The notes beneath the pieces are model-generated. The model had not been told where the DNA came from. It made no database searches and worked only from the letters and a program-made list of their open reading frames with translations. This document shows positions 1,749 through 53,309 of a stretch of DNA of 64,000 nucleotides, one piece after another. The stretch's first letter is position 1, and every line of letters begins with the position of its first letter. Source of the DNA: Lachnospiraceae bacterium (GTDB lineage Bacteria; Bacillota; Clostridia; Lachnospirales; Lachnospiraceae); NCBI GenBank assembly GCA_029219245.1, contig JAQXTA010000050.1, positions 1 to 64,000 on the forward strand. The letters are read 5' to 3'. The translations under genes and the position numbers were made by a program.

Positions 1749-4700
1749 ATGTGTAATCAGAAGGAAGCGTTTGTAATTGAAAATTATGGGAAAAAGTCTA
1801 CATTTGCAAGTTTCTTGCCGGGAATCGCCGGTATTCATGGGACACCGGGATGGTGTTATTATGTAAACCGAGGACAGTGCGTATCCTCTTTTGGTGTGGA
1901 AAATAAGGATCATGCCATTATGGAATTTTATCCGGCACATCAGGCTTGTCAGAATGTAAAAAGAACCGGTTTTCGTACTTTTATAAGAATAGATGGAGAA
2001 TACTTTGAAGCGTTTGCGAAGGAAGAAGAAACGCATCGTATGATGATTTTTCAGAATGGTCTGGAAATTGAAGAGGAGAATCAAGCAAAAAAGCTTCGCA
2101 CGCATGTTACCTATTTTACCTTACCGGAAGAAAAAGCCGGAGCACTGGTACGGAAGGTAACGGTAAAAAATATGGCGCAGAAAGCGGTGGAACTGGAAAT
2201 TTTAGATGGCATGCCGGCATGTATTCCTTATGGAGTAAGCAACGATGATTTGAAGACGATGGGAAACCTCGTAAAAGCATGGATGCAGGTAGAGCATGTG
2301 GAAACAAAGGTGCCGTACTACCGGGTAAGGGCAAGCATTGTGGATACGGCATCGGTGACGGAAGTAGTCAGCGGTAATTTTTCTTTTGGCTGTCTGTCCG
2401 ACGGAAGCAAACTGTCGGCAATCGTAGACCCTGATGTTGTTTTTTCGTATGATACAACACTGACTAATGCGGTCATTTTTAAAGAAGGAGGACTGGATGC
2501 GGTACAGCAGGCAGAACAGGTTACCCAGAACCAGTTCCCATGCAGCTTTTACGGAACAAAGAAAACACTGGCTCCAGCAGAAGAATTGACAATTTATGAG
2601 ATGATAGGCCAGGTAGAAAGCTATGAAGTCTTGCAGAAATTTTTAGAGAAAAAAATGGATGGAGCCTATTTTGAAGAGAAGCTATATTTGACAAGAAAAA
2701 TTGTAAATGATTTATGTGGTCACATTGATACTCATACAGCCTCTGCGGATTTCGATGCCTACTGTCGTTATACATATATGGACAATGTGCTGCGTGGAGG
2801 TTATCCGATTACACTTGGTAAGGATAAGATTTTCTATATTTATTCCAGAAAGCATGGTGATTTGGAACGAGAATATAATTATTTCAGTATGCTGCCGGAA
2901 TTTTATTCCCAGGGAAACGGAAGCTATCGGGACGTGAACCAGAACCGGAGATGCGACAATTTCTTTACCCCCTATGTTGGGACAGAAAATATACGAACCT
3001 TCTATAACTTTATCCAGTTAGATGGTTACAATCCTCTTTCGATTGAAAAGGTAACTTACATACTGCCCAAAGAAGCAGGAGAGCGTATTTTTGCAACGCT
3101 TCCAACAGCGGAAAAGGAGCAGATTGTGGAAACGTTACAGAAGCCTTTTACGCCGGGAGCATTCTTCCGCGTGGCAGGAGCGATGGAAGAAGAACAGGCG
3201 CAGCAGTATTTTGAACAGGTTATGGTAGAAGCTGTCAGCCAGATGAATGGCAGTTTTGGAGAAGGCTATTGGTCTGACCATTGGACCTATAATCTGGACC
3301 TGATTGAAAGTTATTTGAAAATATATCCGGAAAAGGAACAGGAACTTCTGATGGATGAAAGCTATACCTGGTTTTTATCTCAGGTAGCCATCAACAAGAG
3401 AAAGAAACGTTATACGAAAACAGCAAACGGTATCCGCCAGTATTATGCTCTGAACGAAGAAAGCAGACGTGATACGGAAGAAAAGCTGGTATGTGGCAGT
3501 TTTGGTAAAGGAGAAGTTGTAAAATCGACCTTGCTTGAAAAACTGCTGACACTCTGTACAACGAAATTTGCTGCTCTGGACGCTTACGGTATGGGGGTTG
3601 AAATGGAAGGCGGTAAGCCGGGCTGGTATGATGCGTTAAATGGGCTACCGGGGCTATTTGGTTCCTCTATGGCAGAAACCTATGAGCTTGGACGTATGTT
3701 GGAGTATACGATTGCTGTCCTGAAAAAATATCCGGGTAAAATCAAAATGCTGGAAGAAACAGCAGATTTTATGGAACAGGTAGTTTCCTTGGCCGATGAA
3801 TACAAAGAGGTTTTGCTGAAAGAACAGGAAGTAACCGAATATTGGAATCAGATAAATGATAGAAAAGAAGCATACTGGGAAAAGGTCTATAGCGGTATTT
3901 CCGGTAAGAAGACTGAGCTTGACTGTATGAGACTGACGGAGATTATGGAATTTTTCCATGAGATTGTAGAAACCGGTATCCGTAAGGCATGTGCAATGGA
4001 GAATGGTATCTGTCCGACGTATTTCAGCTTTGATGTGACCGAATATGAAGAAGATGAGGAAGGCATTCTTCCTAAACATTTTGCAGTAAAGAAAATTCCG
4101 CTTTTCTTGGAGGGACCGGTACGCTATTTGAAGCTGGATAATAGCATTGATGAAAAAAAGAAGCTGTATGAAAATGTAAAAGACAGCAGTCTTTTTGATA
4201 CGAAATTATCCATGTATAAGGTAAACGCTTCCTTAAAAGATGCTTCTTATGAAATCGGACGCTGTAAGGCATTTACTCCGGGATGGCTGGAAAATGAGTC
4301 CATATGGCTTCACATGGAATACAAATATTTGCTGGAGGTGTTAAAATCCGGCTTGTATAAAGAATTTATCGGGGATTTCCAGAAAGCAGCAATTCCATTC
4401 CTTGACCCGGAAGTATACGGCAGAAGCATTTATGAAAATTCTTCCTTTATTGCAAGCAGTGATAATCCGAATCAGAAGATTCATGGCAAGGGCTTTGTTG
4501 CAAGACTGAGCGGTTCGACGGTAGAATTTATCCATATGTGGTTCATTATGATGTTTGGGGAAAAACCTTTTGCAGTAGAGGAGGGAAAATTAAGTCTGTC
4601 CTTTACACCACTTATGCCGGCATATTTAATTGGTGAAGAAAGAAAGGTAGAGGCAATGTTCCTTGGACATACACCGGTTATCTATCATTTCGAGGAACAG

Positions 4701-5149: not shown

Positions 5150-6544
5150 ATGAAAAAGAAACTTGTAAGCGTTTTACTTTGTGCATCCATGATTTCTACC
5201 GTATTGGTAGGATGTGGTTCTGGTGAAACATCTACAACAGACAATGCAGCAGCAACAGAAGATACGGCTGCAGAAGAAACAACAGATGATGCAGCAACTG
5301 AAACAGCAACAGCTGGTGACGGTGCAGTTTATTACTTAAACTTCAAACCGGAACAGGATGAGCAGTGGCAGACATTAGCAAAAACTTATACAGAAGAAAC
5401 AGGAACTCCTGTAACTGTTATCACAGCAGCTTCCGGTACTTATGAGCAGACACTGAAATCTGAAATTGCTAAGACAGAAGCTCCTACTTTATTCCAGGTA
5501 AATGGTCCTGTAGGTCTTGCAAACTGGAAAGATTACTGCTATGACTTAAAAGACAGCGAGTTATACACATATGTAAAGAGTGATGACTTCGTATTAAAAG
5601 AAGGCGATGCAGTAGATGGTATTGCTTACTGTATTGAAACTTATGGTATCATTTACAACAAGACTTTACTTACTGATTATTGTGCATTAGATGGAGCCGT
5701 TATCTCTGATGCATCCGAAATCAACAATTTTGAAACATTAAAAGCAGTAGCTGATGACATTCAGGCTCGTAAAGATGAATTAGGTGTAGCAGGTGCATTT
5801 GCTTCCGCAGGTATGGATTCTTCCTCTGACTGGAGATTCAAAACTCACCTTGCAAACCTTCCTATCTACTATGAGTACAAAGATAAAGGTATCGGTTCTA
5901 CAGATGCAATCGAAGGAACTTATTTAGACAACTACAAACAGATTTGGGATTTATATATCACAGATTCTACTTGTGCACCTGCATTACTTTCCAGCAAGAC
6001 TGGTGAAGATGCAGCAGCTGAATTCGCAACAGGTATGGCAGTATTCTATCAGAATGGTACATGGGCATACGGCGATATCACATCCGATGGTCTTACAGAT
6101 GATGATTTAGGAATGCTTCCTATCTACATTGGTGCTGAAGGCGAAGAAAATCAGGGACTTTGTACAGGTTCTGAGAACTACTGGTGTGTAAATAAGAATG
6201 CTTCCGAAGCTGATATTCAGGCAACACTTGATTTCTTAGCTTGGGTAGTAACCTCTGACACAGGTAGAAACTCTCTTGCAAATGATATGGGATTTGTAAC
6301 ACCTTTCACAACCTTTGATGATGGTTACAAAGCAAGCAATCCTTTAATCAATGCAGCAGATGAATACATTGCAGCAGGCAAAACAGCAGTATCATGGAAC
6401 TTCTCATCTATTCCGTCTGAAACATGGAAAGATAATGTAGGTAATGCATTACTTGAATATGCTCAGGGAACAGGCGAATGGAGCGCAGTTGAAACAGCAT
6501 TCGTTGATGGATGGAAGACAGAATACGAAGCAGCAAATCAGTAA
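5150..6544 (+). CDS. Maltodextrin-type ABC transporter, substrate-binding lipoprotein
   Basis: Extracellular solute-binding protein of 464 residues that would capture malto-oligosaccharides for import. A lipoprotein signal peptide ends in a VLVGC lipobox with Cys22, followed by an Ala/Thr/Glu-rich linker to about residue 60 and then a family 1 (MalE-like) binding fold. AGGGAGAGG lies upstream of the ATG. Codon use favours GCA, ACA and GTA, suggesting high expression. Two permease genes follow, MalQ and a LacI regulator come next, and an operator ladder precedes it, so the maltodextrin assignment rests largely on context. A terminator directly after the gene should make its transcript more abundant than that of the permeases. 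No ATPase is encoded nearby; a shared MsmK-type ATPase elsewhere is expected. Confidence 0.85.
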   Translation: MKKKLVSVLLCASMISTVLVGCGSGETSTTDNAAATEDTAAEETTDDAATETATAGDGAVYYLNFKPEQDEQWQTLAKTYTEETGTPVTVITAASGTYEQTLKSEIAKTEAPTLFQVNGPVGLANWKDYCYDLKDSELYTYVKSDDFVLKEGDAVDGIAYCIETYGIIYNKTLLTDYCALDGAVISDASEINNFETLKAVADDIQARKDELGVAGAFASAGMDSSSDWRFKTHLANLPIYYEYKDKGIGSTDAIEGTYLDNYKQIWDLYITDSTCAPALLSSKTGEDAAAEFATGMAVFYQNGTWAYGDITSDGLTDDDLGMLPIYIGAEGEENQGLCTGSENYWCVNKNASEADIQATLDFLAWVVTSDTGRNSLANDMGFVTPFTTFDDGYKASNPLINAADEYIAAGKTAVSWNFSSIPSETWKDNVGNALLEYAQGTGEWSAVETAFVDGWKTEYEAANQ

Positions 6545-43376: not shown

Positions 43377-43390
43377 CGAACAAATGTTTG
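43377..43390. promoter_or_regulatory. LexA (SOS) box 1
   Basis: CGAACAAATGTTTG fits the Gram-positive LexA/DinR operator CGAACNNNNGTTCG with one changed position in the right arm. It lies just upstream of the -35 of the radical-SAM gene. Confidence 0.78.
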
Positions 43391-43398
43391 CAAAAGTC

Positions 43399-43427
43399 TT
43401 GCTATAAAGCAAAGGCTGTGATATGAT
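43399..43427 (+). promoter_or_regulatory. Promoter of the radical-SAM repair genes
   Basis: TTGCTA (43399-43404) and TATGAT (43422-43427) are 17 bases apart. LexA boxes lie on both sides, 8 bases before the -35 and 5 bases after the -10. Confidence 0.65.
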
Positions 43428-43432
43428 GGATG

Positions 43433-43446
43433 CAAACAAATGTTCG
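43433..43446. promoter_or_regulatory. LexA (SOS) box 2
   Basis: CAAACAAATGTTCG fits the LexA/DinR operator with one change in the left arm, and is nearly the inverted copy of box 1. It covers the expected transcription start and sits just upstream of the ribosome binding site. Confidence 0.78.
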
Positions 43447-43456
43447 AGGTACGATT

Positions 43457-44743
43457 ATGGAAGTACGCATTTCACCACAGATGTCGCTTATGGAAAAACT
43501 GAATATTCTGGCGGATGCTGCAAAATATGATGTATCCTGCAGCTCCAGCGGTTCTTCACGCAAAGGAGACGGAACCGGTATCGGCAATACCGTAAAGGCG
43601 GGACTATGCCATAGTTTTGCGGCGGACGGCAGATGCATTTCCTTATTGAAGATACTTTTTACCAATGAATGTATCTATGACTGTAAATATTGCCTGAACC
43701 GTAAGTCCAATGACGTACCGAGAGCTTCTTTTACACCGGATGAAGTATGCGAGCTGACGATGGAATTTTATCGCCGTAATTATATAGAAGGTTTGTTTCT
43801 AAGCTCCGGTATTTTGTACAGTCCGGATTATACAATGGAACTGTTGTGTCAGACCTTGTATAAGCTTCGGACCGTTCACAATTTTCAGGGCTATATTCAT
43901 GTGAAAGCAATTCCGGGTGCTGACCCGGAACTGATTCGTAAGGCCGGCTTTCTGGCAGACAGAATGAGCGTGAATATGGAACTGCCGACAGCAGAAAGCT
44001 TACAGAAGTTAGCACCGAATAAGCATCGGAAGAATATTCTGAAGCCTATGAGGCTGATTCAGAATGGGATTAGTGCGAATAAGAATGAACTGGCTCTTTA
44101 TCGGAATGCACCGCATTTTTGCGAAGCAGGACAGTCTACCCAGATGATTGTCGGGGCTACACCGGAGAGCGATTATCAGATTATGTCAGTGGCAGAGGGC
44201 TTGTATCAGAAATTTGATTTGAAAAGAGTCTATTACTCTGCGTATGTCAACGTGAATGAAGACAAAGATTTACCGGCACTTCCGGGTGGACCGCCGCTTC
44301 TTCGGGAACACAGATTATATCAGGCAGACTGGTTGCTGCGTTTCTATGAATTTACGGTAGATGAACTGCTGACAGAAGACCGTCCCAATTTTAATATGAT
44401 GATTGATCCGAAAGCGGATTGGGCTGTCAGACATCTGGAAATGTTCCCTGTGGAAATCAATCGGGCAGATTATCAACTGCTTCTGCGGATTCCGGGAATT
44501 GGTGTAAAAAGTGCCAGAAGAATTCTTGCGGCAAGACGTTTTGGAAATCTGACCTTTGAGGATTTGAAGAAGATAGGCGTTGTGTTGAAAAGGGCCTTAT
44601 ATTTTATTACCTGCAACGGAAGGATGATGTACCCTACGAAGATAGAAGAAAACTATATTGTCAGAAATCTGACTTATCAGAAGGAACGTTATCCTTTTTC
44701 TATGGATGGAATGCAGTATGAACAGATGTCGCTGTTTTCCTAG
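43457..44743 (+). CDS. Radical SAM protein with helix-hairpin-helix domain, putative DNA modification/repair (TIGR03916 type)
   Basis: A 428-residue protein with the radical SAM cluster motif CIYDCKYC (Cys72, Cys76, Cys79) and a conserved Ser-rich N-terminus (YDVSCSSSGSSRKGDGTGIG, about 24-43). A SAM barrel runs to about residue 310. A helix-hairpin-helix (LLLRIPGIGVKSARRILAARR, starting near 341) would bind DNA. The family is defined by its link with the DUF4130/TIGR03915 protein, which is the next gene. Its reaction is unknown. ATG 43457 with GAGGTACG upstream is preferred over ATG 43430, which would place the LexA box inside the gene. Two LexA boxes indicate induction by DNA damage. Confidence 0.88.
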   Translation: MEVRISPQMSLMEKLNILADAAKYDVSCSSSGSSRKGDGTGIGNTVKAGLCHSFAADGRCISLLKILFTNECIYDCKYCLNRKSNDVPRASFTPDEVCELTMEFYRRNYIEGLFLSSGILYSPDYTMELLCQTLYKLRTVHNFQGYIHVKAIPGADPELIRKAGFLADRMSVNMELPTAESLQKLAPNKHRKNILKPMRLIQNGISANKNELALYRNAPHFCEAGQSTQMIVGATPESDYQIMSVAEGLYQKFDLKRVYYSAYVNVNEDKDLPALPGGPPLLREHRLYQADWLLRFYEFTVDELLTEDRPNFNMMIDPKADWAVRHLEMFPVEINRADYQLLLRIPGIGVKSARRILAARRFGNLTFEDLKKIGVVLKRALYFITCNGRMMYPTKIEENYIVRNLTYQKERYPFSMDGMQYEQMSLFS

Positions 44744-44756
44744 AGGAGAAATTACT

Positions 44757-45530
44757 ATGGAAGAAAAATATTTAGTCTGCGAAGATTCGCTGGAAGGAAT
44801 TTTTACCGGGATATATGATGCGTATGCTTTCAGGGAGGGGCATGAGCATATCCATATACAGATTGGGGAAGAAGAAAATTTAAAATTATTTGCAACCTAT
44901 CGGTATATTTTTCCGGATGATGTCAAGACTGGAAAGGTAATCGGTACGATTCAGCGAAGACTTGGAATGGACATCTATGTGGCATTATGCAAAGCACTTG
45001 CAACGGATGATGCAGATAAAGGACAGGCAGTTTACCAGACGATTGTAGATGCATTAACGAGAGGAAGCGGAAGAAGAGTACTGGAAAATGTATCTAATCC
45101 ATATGTTGAGAAAACTTTCAATTTATGCAGAAAAACAGGAAATGAGATTCATCGTCTGATGGAATTTGTGCGGTTTCAGGAGTTGGAACAGGGAATTCTT
45201 TTTTCGAAAATCGGTCCGGTTTGTAATGTGGTATCCTTTTTGATGCCGCATTTTTCTGACAGGCTTCCTTTGGAAGATTTTATTATTTATGATGAAAAAA
45301 GAGGTATTTTCGGAGTTCATCCGGCAAGAAAGGAATGGTATCTGGTAACCGGACAGGAACTGAAATTGGATGAGAGATTGCCGTATTCGGAAAAAGAGGA
45401 ATCTTATCGAGATTTATTTACCCATTTTTGTCGGACAATCGCTATAAAAGAGCGTAAAAACTTAAAATTGCAACAGCAAATGCTACCGTTAAGGTTCCAA
45501 GATTATATGGTCGAATTTGCCGAAAAATAA
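44757..45530 (+). CDS. TIGR03915/DUF4130 family putative DNA repair protein
   Basis: A 257-residue soluble protein that accompanies the radical-SAM/HhH protein in many Firmicutes and proteobacteria and is fused to a uracil-DNA-glycosylase-like domain in some. Here it is the stand-alone form. Recognisable segments are EDSLEGIFTGIYDAYAFREGHEHI near the start, SRI-like TIQRRLG, HRLMEFVRFQELEQGILFSKIGPVCNVV in the middle, and FSDRLPLEDFIIYDEKRGIFGVHPARKEW. It begins 13 bases after the radical-SAM gene with AGAGGAG upstream, so both are made together under LexA control. The activity is not known. Confidence 0.85.
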   Translation: MEEKYLVCEDSLEGIFTGIYDAYAFREGHEHIHIQIGEEENLKLFATYRYIFPDDVKTGKVIGTIQRRLGMDIYVALCKALATDDADKGQAVYQTIVDALTRGSGRRVLENVSNPYVEKTFNLCRKTGNEIHRLMEFVRFQELEQGILFSKIGPVCNVVSFLMPHFSDRLPLEDFIIYDEKRGIFGVHPARKEWYLVTGQELKLDERLPYSEKEESYRDLFTHFCRTIAIKERKNLKLQQQMLPLRFQDYMVEFAEK

Positions 45531-45697: not shown

Positions 45698-45787
45698 CAT
45701 CTCAAACAAGAGGAAAACGGTTTCTAAATACCATATATAGTGGAACTGATAATATTGATACACATTTCATTAGAAAGGATGATATTT

Positions 45788-46015
45788 ATGATGCAGCATA
45801 GAATTAAACTCAGACCGGATGAGGTAAAAGAGTTTGTGGCAGCAGCAACAAAGTGTGCATATGATGTAGATATTTCTTATAATAGTTTTATCGTAGATGC
45901 GAAGTCCATTATTGGAGTTCTTGGACTGAATTTTAATCAGGTATTGACCGTTTCCTACAATGGCTATGATGAAAATTTTGAGAAATATCTTAGAAAATTC
46001 GCAGTTGCCTGCTAA
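45788..46015 (+). CDS. HPr-like protein lacking the phosphorylatable histidine
   Basis: A 75-residue protein that aligns without gaps to HPr over its second half: TKCAYDVDISYN, then VDAKSIIGVLGL, where Ser40 matches the regulatory Ser46 of HPr, and a final VSYNGYDENFEKYLRKF. The region where HPr has GIHARPA reads RIKLRPDEV, so the active-site histidine is absent and the N-terminus is about six residues shorter. This is the situation of Crh in Bacillus, which keeps Ser46 but not His15 and acts only as a CcpA co-regulator. A Crh-like role is inference. ATG 45788 follows GAAAGGATG. The gene has its own promoter and terminator. Confidence 0.72.
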   Translation: MMQHRIKLRPDEVKEFVAAATKCAYDVDISYNSFIVDAKSIIGVLGLNFNQVLTVSYNGYDENFEKYLRKFAVAC

Positions 46016-46124: not shown

Positions 46125-48581
46125 ATGGAAATTCGTATTTCAGTCAGAGGACTGGTAGAATTTATTCTGCGTTCCGGCAATATCGATAATCGTAAAGCAG
46201 CTTCTCCGGAGAATGCCATGCAGGAGGGCGGAAGGATTCATAGAATGATTCAGCGCCGCATGGGAGCAGAGTATCATGCCGAGGTAGGGCTATCCTTCTG
46301 TTATCCGACACCGGATTATGACATTATCATAGAAGGGCGTGCCGATGGTATTATTATAGAAAACAGTGGTGAGAGAAGTGCGGTACCGGAGCTTACGGAT
46401 ACGGAAATACCGGCGGATATGGCACAGCTTATAACGGCGACGATTGACGAAATTAAGGGAACTTATCATGACCTTACGAAAATAAAGGAAGCGGTTCCGG
46501 TGCATCTTGCACAGGCAAAGTGTTATGCTTATTTTTTTGCTTCGCAAAATCACTTAAAATCGATTCGTGTCAGAATGACTTATTGCCATTTAGAAACGGA
46601 AGAAATTCGCTATTTTCATCATGACTACGCATATGCAGAACTAAAAGAGTGGTTTGAAGAGGTCATGGAGAAATACCGGAAGTGGGCAGATTATAGCTTT
46701 ACATGGCAGAAAATAAGGCAAAGCTCTATCAAAGAGCTGAAATTCCCGTTTGCATACCGGGAAGGACAAAAGGAACTCGTGACATATGTTTATCAAACTA
46801 TTTACCATAAAAGAAAATTGTTTATCGAGGCACCAACCGGAGTCGGGAAAACTATTTCTACCATTTTTCCGGCGGTAAAGGCAGTCGGAGAGGGGATGGG
46901 AGAAAAAATTTTTTATCTGACGGCAAAAACGATTACCCGGACGGTGGCGGAGGATACGTTCCAGTTATTACGGGATAAGGGATTGGAGTTTAAAACCGTT
47001 ATTCTGACGGCCAAAGAGAAAATCTGCTTCTTAGAAGAAATGGAATGCAATCCGGAAGCTTGCCCATATGCCAAAGGGCATTATGACAGAGTCAATGAAG
47101 CTATGTATGATTTGCTGACACAGGAAGACAGTTTTCATCGGGAAAAAATTGAAGAGTATGCAAAGAAACATAGGGTCTGCCCGTTTGAAATGTGCCTGGA
47201 TATGAGTCTGTTCTCCGATGCAGTCATCTGTGACTATAACTATGTTTTTGATCCACATGTCTATTTACGGCGTTTTTTCGCAGAAGGAAATAAAGGAGAA
47301 TATTTATTCTTGATTGATGAGGCACATAATCTGGTGGAGCGGGGCAGGGATATGTACAGTGCTCTGCTGCGGAAGGAAGATTTCCTGAAGTTAAAGAAAA
47401 CCGTGAAAGAATATTCACCCAAAATGGAGAAGCAACTTGAAAAATGCAATAAGGAGTTGCTTGCTTTAAAACGGGAATGCATCAATTATAAAATAGAAGA
47501 GTATATTGCACCGTTTGTTATGGCATTGAACCGCTTAAGCAGCACAATGGAAGATTATCTGGAAGACCATGAAGATAGTCCGGTTAGGAAAGAAATCCTG
47601 GAGTTTTACTTTGAAGTATCACATTTTCTGGGGATTTATGAACTGGTGGATGAAAATTATGTTACTTATTCTCAGATGGAGGATGACGGCAGTTTTATTT
47701 TGAAGCTTTTTTGTGTCAATCCTGCCAAAAATCTGCTGGAATGTATGATGAAAGGCAGAAGTACGATTCTTTTTTCGGCCACGTTGCTTCCAATTCAATA
47801 TTATAAAACACTGCTTGGGGCTAAAGAAGGGGATTATGAGGTTTATGCGAAGTCCGTATTCCGACCGGAAAAGAGAGGATTGTATATCGGAAGTGATGTA
47901 ACAAGTAAATATACAAGAAGAAGCGAGATGGAATATTATAACATTGCTTCTTATATCTATGAAATTGTAAAAAACAGACATGGTAATTATATGATTTTCT
48001 TCCCGTCACATGCATTTCTTAGAAATGTGTATGATGTTTTTATGGAGCATTTTGCCGAAGAACAACTGGAGTGCATTGTACAGGAAGATTATATGAATGA
48101 ACGATCCAGAGAAGAATTCCTGAACCGGTTTACCGGAAACGAAAGCTGTGATTTATCAAAAGTCATTCAAATGGATATTGAAATCGAGGAGGAAAGAAGC
48201 CTGCTTGGTTTCTGTGTCCTGGGTGGCATTTTCAGTGAGGGTATTGATTTGAAAAATGACAGCTTAATCGGGGCGATTATTGTCGGAACCGGATTGCCGC
48301 AGGTCTGCAATGAAAGAGAAATTCTGAAAAAATATTTTGATGGATGGGGCGAAAATGGTTTTGACTATGCCTATCGTTATCCGGGCATGAACAAAGTGCT
48401 TCAGGCAGCAGGCAGAGTCATCAGGACAGCAGAGGATGTGGGAATTGTTGCCTTGTTAGATGAACGCTTTTTGAATCCGTCCTACCAACGGCTTTTCCCG
48501 CGGGAATGGAATAACTATGAAGTCGTAACAACCACCCGGGTTGCAAAGAGGGTGGAACGTTTCTGGAATGAGTGGCTTTAA
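46125..48581 (+). CDS. PD-(D/E)XK nuclease-XPD/DinG-type helicase fusion
   Basis: An 818-residue protein with two parts. Residues 1-200 form a RecB/Cas4-like nuclease domain with His40, Asp74 in GRADG, Glu109 and Lys111 in DEIKG, and QAKCYAY (130-136). The helicase part has Walker [11 protein letters not shown] (about 235-244), four cysteines likely to hold a 4Fe-4S cluster (Cys301, 308, 313, 352), DEAH in FLIDEAHNL (about 395), and a C-terminal motor domain ending with [10 protein letters not shown]. It belongs to superfamily 2, XPD-like, 5'-3' helicases. All key residues look intact. It sits between the LexA-controlled gene pair and endonuclease IV, with which it shares overlapping stop codons. 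Confidence 0.9.
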
Positions 48582-49432
48582 CGTAACATCTGGATTTCCT
48601 CTTTGTATGGGGCAATCTTTTTGTCCGGGTTGTTATCAGATGGAATATAGGGTGTTTCCAGAATTTTGGGCAGGTCCATAAAATCGGGATGGTGTACCAC
48701 TTGGCGGATTGCCTGCAGACCAATGGTACCCTTTCCGATGTTTTCATGTCTGTCTTTGGCAGCACCCAATATATTTTTGCTGTCATTGATATGAATGACA
48801 GCTACATTCTTCTTTCCAATCAATTTATCAAATCGGTCAATGACACCGTCAAAATCATTTGCTACATCATAGCCGGCATCGTTTAAATGGCATAAATCCA
48901 GACAGACCCTAAGCTTATCGCTATATTTTACCCCATCGAAAATCGTTGCCAGCTCTTCAAAATTTCTTCCGATTTCGGAACCTTTTCCAGCCATGGTTTC
49001 CAGAGCAATACAGCAGGGAGTATCTGCAGTTAAGACCTTATTGATTCCTTGAACAATCCGGTCAATACCTGCTTTAACACCGGCTCCTACATGGGCACCC
49101 GGATGGAGAATCAAAGTCTTGCTGCCCATTGCAATGGTACGTTCCAGTTCCAGTGCCAGAAAATCCACAGCAAGAGTATAGGTATCCGGATTGACCGAAT
49201 TAGCCAAATTGATGATATAGGGGGCATGTACGACGAATTCTTCTATATTATGTGAATGCATATATTCCCATGCGGCAGGAATATTGAGTTCGGAAATGTC
49301 TTTTCGCTTCGTGTTCTGGGGAGCTCCGGTATAGACCATAAAGGTATTGGCATTATAAGAAACAGCTTCTTTTACGGAAGCAAGCAACATTTCTTTGCCA
49401 CCCATACTGACATGAGAACCAATCTTAATCAT
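48578..49432 (-). CDS. nfo: Deoxyribonuclease IV (AP endonuclease)
   Basis: A 284-residue zinc enzyme that cuts DNA 5' of abasic sites and removes 3' blocking groups in base excision repair. Metal ligands lie in the family motifs: [65 protein letters not shown] and [11 protein letters not shown]. The start is the minus-strand ATG at 49432, with AAAGGA before it; the frame is open to 49510 but without homology. It is convergent with the nuclease-helicase gene and the two stop codons overlap in complementary TTAA. Confidence 0.95.
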
Positions 49433-49871
49433 AGGGTAAAATCCTTTCTTAATTGAAGTATTCTTTGAAAGCAAATGCATGCTAATCCATATTATAAAGG
49501 AAAATCTCAAAAGAGGAAATACAAAGTTCAGAAAGAATAGACAGAAAGGAGGTGGAAAAGGATTCCAGACTAAAAAAAGGAATACGAGTCACAATAATAT
49601 GACGCACTTGTCAAATGTGGATAACTATGTGGAAATTGGGGATTTCTAACTCTTTACTTTAATTTTTTTGATAAATGTGTCAAAATAGCTGTGGAAAAGT
49701 CGGTCAATAGGATGTTTTATAATAAAAATAGTACTAAACCGGTCAATCATTAAAATGACATTGTAACTGATTTTACCATTTTTTTAAATATTTCTATGTG
49801 CTTCTATGTAAATTTCTCTTTTTATGGTATACTACAACAAGAATAAAAAACGACAACGGAGGAATAAGAAA
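49433..49871. other. 439-base intergenic region with DnaA-box-like sites
   Basis: A TATAAT on the minus strand (49491-49496) probably serves nfo, and TATACT on the plus strand (49828-49833) probably serves the GH13 gene. Between them is AT-rich DNA with TGTGGATAA (49616-49624), a perfect DnaA-box complement, plus TGTGGAAAT (49628-49636) and TGTGGAAAA (49690-49698) in the same orientation. No gene was found; the only short frame with an ATG encodes 16 residues and lacks a ribosome binding site. Confidence 0.45.
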
Positions 49872-51557: not shown

Positions 51558-53309
51558 ATGAAAAGTAAGAAAGGAATAAAAAGGCTATCGGATTATATAT
51601 GGGAAAACAGGCTGCCCTACTTATGTGCGGTTGCAGCGCTCTTGATTGCGGTAACGCTTGATATGCTGGCACCGCGATTGACGGCACATGTGGTTGATGA
51701 TGTTATTGTCGGCGGCAATATGGGAGAATTGAAGTATTTACTGCTTGGATTTCTGGGGATTGGAGTAGGAAGATGCATTTTTCAATATATCAAGGAATAT
51801 ACTTTTGACCGGATTGGCTCCAAGATTGCATCGCAGATGCGTAAGGATCTGTTTGTGCATATCCAGTCTTTAAGTGCAGATTTTTTTGACCGGACCAATA
51901 CCGGCGAATTGATGTCCAGAGTAAAGGATGATATTGACCATATCTGGGATGCTTTAAGCTTCGTTGGAATGTTGATTATTGAGGTGGTGTATCACACAAG
52001 TATTATTTTGGTCTGTATGTATATGCTGAACTGGAAACTGGCGCTGATTCCGACCGCGGCCATGCTTTTTTGCGGTACCGTTGCGATTGTCATGGAGCGG
52101 AAGCTGGGAAGTGTTTATGAAGAAATCAGTGAAGAGAATGCTACGTTAAATACGGTGGCAGAAGAAAATCTGGCTGGTGTACGAACCGTAAAGGCTTTTG
52201 CAAGAGAAAAATATGAGATTACTAAATTTTTATCACATAATCAGAGATATTATGACCTGAATATGACACAGTCCAAGGTTTTTGTGAAGTTTTATCCGTA
52301 TTTTTCTGTAGTAACGAAGGTTCTGCCGCTTTTGACGATTCTGATTGGCGGAAAATTTGTCATTGCAGGAGAAATGAGTCTGGGTGAAATGACAGCATTT
52401 GTGGAGTATTCAAACAATATTGTATGGCCGATGGAAATGTTGGGGTGGCTGACGAACAGTTTTTCTTCCGCAGTGGCTTCCAACAAAAAAATACGGAAGA
52501 TTTATCAGGAAACTTCCAGCATTAAAGAAGTGGAGCATCCGGTAATCTTAGAAAAGATGAAAGGAAAAATACAGTTTGACCATGTATCGTTCCATAAGGC
52601 AGATTTGCATGAAATCCTGCATGATATTTCTTTCACTTTGGAACCGGGGAAGACACTTGGAATTATGGGAGCAACCGGTGCGGGGAAGACATCGATTATA
52701 CAGCTTTTGCAACGTATGTATGATGCAACGGATGGTACCATTTTGGTGGATGACGTAGATATCAGGGAGCTTTCCCTAGAACAGCTTCGGACCAATATCA
52801 GCTATGTCATGCAGGATGTATTCCTGTTTTCGGATACCATTAATGAAAACATTAAGCTGGGTAAGAAACAAGCAGTGGATTTTAATATGGTAAAAAAAGC
52901 ATCGACGGATGCACAGGCAAGTGAATTCATTGAGAAAATGGAAAAGAAATACGATACGGTTATCGGAGAAAGAGGCGTAGGTTTATCCGGAGGACAGAAA
53001 CAGCGAATCAGCATCGCAAGAGCATTATCCAAAAACGATCCGATTCTGGTAATGGACGATTCGACTTCGGCGCTGGATATGGAAACCGAGCATTTGATAC
53101 AGGAAACCTTGCGGAATTTACAAAGTACAACCAAAATTATCATTGCTCATCGTATCAGTGCGGTGCGAAATGCAGATGAAATTCTGGTGTTGGAAAACGG
53201 CAGCATTGCAGAACGCGGAACACATGAAAGTCTGCTTGCGGCAAAAGGTCTGTATTATGAAACGTATCTTGCCCAGTATGGCGATTTCTTAGAGGGGAAG
53301 GAGGCGTAG
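51558..53309 (+). CDS. Heterodimeric ABC multidrug exporter, BmrC-like half
   Basis: A 583-residue half-transporter with six helices (about 1-320) and a nucleotide-binding domain. Walker A is GATGAGKTSII near 373, the signature GLSGGQKQRISIARAL is canonical, and Walker B reads ILVMDDSTSALD, in which residue 501 is Asp where the catalytic Glu is expected. BmrC (YheI, 585 residues) of Bacillus subtilis has the same substitution, creating the degenerate ATP site of the heterodimer. The partner follows after 3 bases. Substrates are probably hydrophobic drugs or peptides. The gene is preceded by an attenuator leader. Confidence 0.9.
   Translation: MKSKKGIKRLSDYIWENRLPYLCAVAALLIAVTLDMLAPRLTAHVVDDVIVGGNMGELKYLLLGFLGIGVGRCIFQYIKEYTFDRIGSKIASQMRKDLFVHIQSLSADFFDRTNTGELMSRVKDDIDHIWDALSFVGMLIIEVVYHTSIILVCMYMLNWKLALIPTAAMLFCGTVAIVMERKLGSVYEEISEENATLNTVAEENLAGVRTVKAFAREKYEITKFLSHNQRYYDLNMTQSKVFVKFYPYFSVVTKVLPLLTILIGGKFVIAGEMSLGEMTAFVEYSNNIVWPMEMLGWLTNSFSSAVASNKKIRKIYQETSSIKEVEHPVILEKMKGKIQFDHVSFHKADLHEILHDISFTLEPGKTLGIMGATGAGKTSIIQLLQRMYDATDGTILVDDVDIRELSLEQLRTNISYVMQDVFLFSDTINENIKLGKKQAVDFNMVKKASTDAQASEFIEKMEKKYDTVIGERGVGLSGGQKQRISIARALSKNDPILVMDDSTSALDMETEHLIQETLRNLQSTTKIIIAHRISAVRNADEILVLENGSIAERGTHESLLAAKGLYYETYLAQYGDFLEGKEA

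Follow-up and report, generated by a model that had tools for sequence, protein, structure and literature searches.

The radical-SAM/DUF4130 pair and its LexA boxes

The stretch of DNA analysed here (64,000 bases of Lachnospiraceae contig JAQXTA010000050.1; hereafter the window) contains two adjoining genes, one for a radical S-adenosylmethionine (radical-SAM) protein with a helix-hairpin-helix (HhH) motif and one for a DUF4130 protein, behind a promoter flanked by two LexA boxes (Table 1). The source is a draft genome of 2.79 Mb in 73 contigs with a completeness of 89.95%. The first protein matches the TIGR03916 profile over positions 1-415 of 415 with 699.5 bits, against a curated cut-off of 343.5, and contains the Pfam domains Radical_SAM and HHH_3, both above cut-off. 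Its partner scores 210.9 bits with TIGR03915 (cut-off 112.25) and also exceeds the cut-off of Pfam DUF4130. The initial annotation, which had assigned the pair to these two families, is confirmed, and both proteins pass the cut-offs by a wide margin. The HhH region gave a profile match to a ComEA-related chain (E 0.00048), while topoisomerase V and RuvA reached only E 0.27-0.7. Since the first computed start of the radical-SAM gene, 43430, is upstream of the likely transcription start, 43457 rather than 43430 is most likely the beginning of this gene. The closest named relatives of the protein, among the matches listed, are 84-87% identical to it and are titled Lachnospiraceae or Clostridiales.

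Table 1. Positions of the features in the window.
Feature	Positions	Strand	Remarks
LexA box 1, CGAACAAATGTTTG	43377-43390	.	Upstream of -35; 19.6 bits, top site of the window
-35 hexamer, TTGCTA	43399-43404	+	From sequence; 17-bp spacer to -10
-10 hexamer, TATGAT	43422-43427	+	From sequence
LexA box 2, CAAACAAATGTTCG	43433-43446	.	Right after -10, over the expected transcription start; 19.0 bits, second-best site
TIGR03916 radical-SAM/HhH gene	43457-44740	+	428 aa; family profile, Pfam Radical_SAM and HHH_3; most likely start
Extra cysteines C28, C51, C60	43538-43636	+	Predicted second metal site; Cys in 29/29
CX3CX2C radical-SAM cluster motif C72, C76, C79	43670-43693	+	Invariant in alignments
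Clamp-binding peptide QMSLF (predicted)	44723-44737	+	Residues 423-427 of the radical-SAM protein; strict motif
TIGR03915/DUF4130 partner gene	44757-45527	+	257 aa; family profile
Small HPr-like protein	45749-46015	+	Just above Pfam, below NCBIfam cut-off; between DUF4130 and helicase
Rad3/DinG-like helicase	46125-48581	+	Below NCBIfam cut-offs; downstream neighbour, not counted with the pair
Endonuclease IV gene	48578-49510	-	Adjoins the helicase

To place the pair among its relatives we used a set of 200 genomes (199 genera) from the same bacterial family. Matches above the family cut-off were present in 112 of the 200 for TIGR03916 and in 112 of the 200 for TIGR03915. From the 112 TIGR03916-positive genomes we took 109 loci. 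Those of G063, G031 and G182, with incomplete genes, were left out, as was an additional incomplete copy in G045. Of the 109 loci, 108, the window's own included, have the DUF4130 gene downstream in the same orientation; the single locus without it (L067) stops near a contig end. The pair also occurs in records of four phyla. The window pair shows no family-level difference from TIGR03916/TIGR03915 (rSAM_link_UDG, SAM_7_link_chp). The locus represents a known SOS-linked family in ordinary, well-conserved form.

The boxes CGAACAAATGTTTG and CAAACAAATGTTCG are 56 bp apart and flank the promoter TTGCTA-17-TATGAT, as the initial annotation had stated. A loose consensus search found 5 matches across the window when 4.62 were expected, which is not above chance, and over the whole genome GAACNNNNGTTY gave 61 and 54 matches, fewer than the same pattern reversed (78 and 77). 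Because consensus matches alone were uninformative, we used instead a matrix of 16 positions, for which the training set consisted of 39 sites in the recA promoters of 30 genomes of this family, that of the window genome included. The 30 recA loci were taken from 60 genomes searched, and 29 of them contain a strict site. When the 64,000 bases were scored with this matrix, the two boxes ranked first and second; the other five sites of at least 10 bits reached 13.3 at most, and between box 2 and position 52452 there was no site of at least 10 bits. The significance of these putative operators lies in their score, position and conservation, not in the count of consensus matches. For recA of the window genome two boxes were found, one of which contains the 12-base core of box 2 (GAACATTTGTTT), and lexA has one good (strict) box plus two weaker ones. 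The pair shows what would be expected in sequence for a member of the LexA/SOS regulon: boxes in the promoter, their conservation in relatives and a lexA gene in the genome.

Conservation of the boxes was assessed at 108 family loci (L126, with only 66 bases upstream, was dropped). The recA-trained matrix detected an upstream site of at least 11 bits in 106 of them, while the controls at the same threshold were nearly empty: 1/108 gene interiors, 0/107 downstream regions, 1/104 far-upstream regions and 1/108 shuffled upstream sequences. Strict boxes were found upstream in 95 of the 108 loci and at least two in 48, and never two in any control. When the threshold was lowered to 8 bits, at least two boxes were present in 87 of the 108 loci; a single box was seen in 4/108 gene interiors and two in none. 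Eighty named loci, the best 80 of 593, which may overlap the family set in species, gave a similar picture, with a site of at least 10 bits upstream in 72 as against 0/80 gene interiors. Further away, GAACN7GAAC, the different LexA motif of Alphaproteobacteria, stands no more than 91 bases before the approximate gene start in all three alphaproteobacterial loci read (no control set).

The spacing between boxes is bimodal, mostly 25-30 and 55-61 bp. In the long-spacing class (34 pairs) the -35 hexamer begins 22-25 bp past the start of box 1 and the -10 hexamer lies just before box 2 in 29 pairs, whereas in the short-spacing class (37 pairs) the first box is inside the -35/-10 spacer in 31. The promoter of the window is typical of the long-spacing class, its -35 hexamer starting 23 bp past the start of the box 1 16-mer. 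Since the boxes shift and switch class among genera while the double-box arrangement persists, its persistence speaks for selection, as far as can be judged from comparing sequences. We consider control of the pair by LexA, predicted from these sites, to be practically certain, and its near-universality suggests a core SOS function in this bacterial family.

The initial annotation had called for a search for LexA boxes in relatives and had taken the two boxes as direct evidence that the system belongs to the SOS response. The predicted membership is supported by LexA-type operators at 106 of 108 loci. SOS control of the pair is not new: it is already in print for Clostridium acetobutylicum and, where the pair is UDG-linked, for other phyla (PMC3828012, PMC8565304, PMC3765255, in the passages concerned). 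We take COG4277, which is found with COG1573, to be equivalent to the TIGR03916 family. Passages of PMC8565304 list a COG1573-COG4277 operon in Bacteroidetes SOS networks, cite Verrucomicrobia and Alphaproteobacteria, and treat the operon as a putative SOS base-excision operon. In the section of PMC3828012 on this subject the Clostridium acetobutylicum operon CAC3343-CAC3344, a radical-SAM operon like the window pair, is placed putatively under LexA. The relevant lines of PMC3765255 link DUF4130 with SplB-like radical-SAM proteins (photolyases) and uracil-DNA glycosylase (UDG), and call it a predicted mutagenesis-related enzyme. A radical-SAM protein under LexA also appears in the Gram-positive core regulon and in Balneolaeota (PMC7739468, family unclear from the portion of text concerned) and in one table row for Streptomyces (PMC9380542, family likewise unclear from that row), and the main text of the C. 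difficile regulon paper (PMC4234289) does not use the term "radical SAM". What is added here concerns mechanism, namely the prediction that the radical-SAM protein docks as a client on the sliding clamp and has a second metal site.

The predicted clamp-binding peptide and the cysteine triad

The C-terminus of the radical-SAM protein reads ...YEQMSLFS. In the passages that deal with the motif, the clamp-binding consensus is given as QL[S/D]LF (PMC12309361, PMC13254535), and Bacillus subtilis PolC is described as carrying QLSLF at its C-terminus (PMC12309361). We searched the last 60 residues of 108 family proteins (107 loci plus the window; one other locus gave no complete 380-aa frame) with the strict pattern Q[LMIV][SDNGTEPA]L[FLW], and found it in 98, the window protein included. 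QLSLF accounts for 64 of these tails and QMSLF for 21. The same pattern occurs in 0.45% of shuffled tails and, outside the tail, in 1 of the 108 proteins. With a broader pattern, which matches 3.1% of shuffled tails, the numbers rise to 104 of 108 family proteins and 76 of the 80 named loci, where the strict pattern matches 60. The DUF4130 tails served as a control and contained the strict motif in 0/108 and the broad one in 3/108 cases. Among the 46 long non-overlapping frames of the window only two have the strict motif, the radical-SAM gene and a LysR-type regulator (QISLL).

Distant members of the protein family keep the peptide: the proteins of Spirosoma, Thioclava and Leisingera end in QLSLF, that of Novosphingobium has QLELF and that of Fusobacterium QLKLF. 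An aspartate directly follows the peptide in 92 of 103 radical-SAM relatives. Entropies at positions inside the peptide are biased, as the rows were chosen by the motif, while the tyrosine at -2 and the aspartate at +5/+6 are unaffected. A QL[S/D]LF-type peptide at an exposed end is the sequence mark of a sliding-clamp client. Such a peptide is present here in the C-terminal tail, and we regard docking of the radical-SAM protein on the DnaN sliding clamp, predicted from the motif, as likely. Its peptide belongs to the same class as those of PolC and the Y-family polymerases, but these are polymerases. Among the open-licence papers listed in our searches we found no radical-SAM sliding-clamp client and no paper uniting the two ideas.

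In the genome of the window two genes of Y-family polymerase type (L282 on contig C66, L283 on contig C68) have the tails QLSLFD and QYDLFD. QLSLFD, located within the last 70 residues of the DNA-polymerase-IV-like protein, is a form common among the radical-SAM relatives, and the gene with QYDLFD has a 19.1-bit LexA box upstream. This resemblance favours the pair as a factor of mutagenesis or damage tolerance, which would alter template bases or aid translesion polymerases rather than repair DNA; the naming of DUF4130 as a predicted mutagenesis-related enzyme in the pertinent lines of PMC3765255 points the same way. We consider such a role improbable, though less so than the two weakest alternatives discussed below.

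The second feature is a triad of cysteines just before the radical-SAM cluster motif. Residues C28, C51 and C60 are cysteine in all 29 sequences of a broad alignment that spans Bacillota, Bacteroidota, Pseudomonadota and Fusobacteriota. These sequences were hand-picked: besides that of the window they comprise 11 from the bacterial family and 17 from elsewhere, and one of the 29 is an unverified phage scaffold. The cluster motif residues C72, C76 and C79 are invariant in the same 29 sequences and in a 79-sequence alignment (of the selected references, alignment A1 kept 78 of 90 and A2 84 of 105). Of the 108 family proteins, 103 retain the triad and 104 the cluster motif. C98, C131, C222 and C386 are not invariant among the 29. 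Lipoyl synthase and MiaB hold a second iron-sulphur cluster, and the position of the triad recalls both enzymes; C28, C51 and C60 are predicted to hold a second metal site. As far as we could search the literature, the clamp peptide and the cysteine triad are new as properties of the family, and they turn a vague label of putative repair into two predictions that can be tested, DnaN binding and a second cluster.

Proposed mechanism and candidate substrates

We propose that LexA would keep the pair off by binding to the two operators, which flank the promoter or overlap with it, and that RecA-driven cleavage of LexA would turn it on. The radical-SAM protein may then contact DNA through its HhH motif and dock on DnaN through the C-terminal QxSLF peptide. 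At stalled forks or gaps a 5'-deoxyadenosyl radical generated at the CX3CX2C cluster could alter a damaged nucleotide or crosslink, perhaps with the assistance of the second metal site held by C28, C51 and C60, and DUF4130 probably recognises or presents the substrate. That the pair has a role in DNA damage is very likely. The account that we favour, with some confidence, is that the two proteins form an SOS-induced, clamp-tethered system for the processing of DNA lesions, in which DUF4130 is the near-constant partner. That the radical chemistry acts on DNA itself is about equally plausible.

The initial annotation had compared the pair with spore photoproduct lyase (SPL). Both proteins have the CX3CX2C motif (C72, C76, C79 in the window), which is common to radical-SAM enzymes generally, and both presumably act on DNA. 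A light-independent, SOS-controlled enzyme that reverses pyrimidine dimers or lesions like them would fit the radical-SAM core, the HhH motif and the LexA boxes, and the portion of PMC3765255 on DUF4130 mentions SplB-like radical-SAM photolyases associated with it. Kinship with SPL is not supported. When the profile of the protein was compared with that of 15 SPL-type sequences, the probability was 0.4%, over only 38 columns around the cluster motif, no match to the Pfam SPL family (PF20903) was found for the radical-SAM protein at E 0.001, and the N-terminal cysteine triad, HhH motif and clamp peptide set the protein apart from SPL. In the 15 SPL-type sequences only C88, C92 and C95 are invariant, as against three further invariant cysteines here.

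SPL has a downstream hydrogen-donor cysteine. C98, which is cysteine in 15 of the 29 broad sequences, the window included, would be a conceivable donor, but between C79 and C386 no cysteine is common to all 29; the donor residue of SPL was not mapped onto this alignment. One column, alanine in the window, is cysteine in 16 of the 29; it is probably position 320, which like C98 is cysteine in at least 90% of the family alignment.

SPL-type matches above 200 bits occur in 15 of the 200 genomes, and the pair is present in 14 of these 15. The odds ratio is 12 (p 0.002), with no correction for kinship or for the choice of the 200-bit threshold, on which the result depends. When any SPL match is counted, 27 of 46 genomes carry the pair, near the overall 112/200 (56%), which is no association. 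Both overlaps were tallied by hand. As the two co-occur at 14/15 and 27/46, they are not mutually exclusive and neither replaces the other. The window genome has no SPL match, and the named relatives appear to live in dark, gut-type habitats. An SPL-like direct reversal is for these reasons quite improbable.

A link to base damage comes from outside the bacterial family of the window. In Thioclava and Leisingera, the two alphaproteobacteria whose partner proteins were scanned, the gene beside the radical-SAM gene encodes a fusion of DUF4130 with UdgX, a uracil/abasic-site trap (TIGR03915 plus TIGR03914). Both fusions (478-488 aa) contain GEQPGxxED as well as a basic loop with LH at its end, which resemble motifs of UdgX. 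In Spirosoma, Parabacteroides and [Eubacterium] eligens the partner is annotated as TIGR03915 alone. The fusions suggest a base or abasic lesion rather than a UV dimer, an assignment that we make tentatively. In our reading the radical-SAM protein would work at stalled forks and deal with DNA lesions that are not UV dimers.

The same evidence allows for a base-excision or abasic-site system, in which DUF4130, with or without UdgX, would locate a base that is damaged or resembles uracil. The radical-SAM protein would then open or release that base, or else release a trapped UdgX-DNA adduct. The fusions with their UdgX-like motifs are in its favour, as is the description of COG1573-COG4277 as a putative SOS base-excision operon in the passages of PMC8565304 on that operon. 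Frames of the family set above the TIGR03915 cut-off are at most 335 aa, too short for such a fusion, which implies that none exists in this family. The pair does not act as a substitute for UDG, a role that we rejected, because ordinary UDG-superfamily genes are present in 193 of the 200 family genomes. We regard this alternative as rather unlikely, although it is the strongest of those considered.

Several results weigh against the mechanism that we propose. No TIGR03914 match, as would be expected for UdgX, was found in the window genome (about 90% complete), and with UDG genes near-universal in the family the link to uracil draws on another phylum. A comparison of DUF4130 with solved structures gave no convincing relative (best E 0.079). 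The broad clamp pattern is missing in 4 of the 108 family proteins and in 4 of the 80 named loci, two of which have QMSLPL and QITLMD instead. A LexA site of at least 10 bits is lacking in 2 of the 108 family loci and in 8 of the 80 named ones (L208, L210, L212, L217, L223, L224, L233 and L246); of the motifs tried, the Spirosoma and Parabacteroides loci showed only matches that were weak or far away, and the Fusobacterium locus showed none.

Csx28, the structure at E 0.079, was treated as a chance match. Across 28 DUF4130 sequences the residues R139, F140, P154, R169, R233 and P244 are invariant, a set that fits phosphate or nucleic-acid binding and may reflect it.

Most known radical-SAM enzymes act on substrates other than DNA, and the enzyme of the pair might modify RNA or a protein during the SOS response, such as a protein that is bound to DNA or crosslinked with it. 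The HhH motif, the clamp peptide, the UDG fusion and the near-universal LexA control all point to DNA, and we give a non-DNA substrate as little credence as an SPL-like reversal. If the radical-SAM enzyme is clamp-bound, it would represent a novel type of replisome client, and the candidates for its lesion would be narrowed to fork-stalling damage. In its fullest form, the sequences could describe the first radical-SAM replisome enzyme, SOS-induced, clamp-tethered and with two metal clusters, which would process lesions at stalled forks together with DUF4130 as lesion-presenting subunit, elsewhere fused to an abasic-site trap; this composite we put forward tentatively.

Neighbouring genes, phage records and other LexA-type sites

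Downstream of the pair a Rad3/DinG-like helicase is encoded on the same strand, in the window as in its near relatives, in 17 of the 80 named loci (68 of the 80 have at least 3 kb of downstream sequence), and it may belong to the same repair neighbourhood. The small HPr-like protein was matched in only 2 of the 80.

Ten records of a phage collection contain a relative. Eight are faecal scaffolds that carry no annotation and two come from Acinetobacter phages; we did not take them as evidence for a phage gene. One faecal "Bacteriophage sp." scaffold (L281; MT835514.1, 43.8 kb, unverified) has the pair with a LexA-type box near the gene start, and this copy may be a phage gene or bacterial contamination.

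Two other LexA-type sites were seen in the window genome, one of 16.4 bits (L255, contig C19, near position 5201) upstream of a DnaD-domain gene and one of 16.3 bits (L256, contig C26, near position 4456) upstream of a gene for a RarA-like AAA ATPase. Both genes are possible further members of the SOS response.

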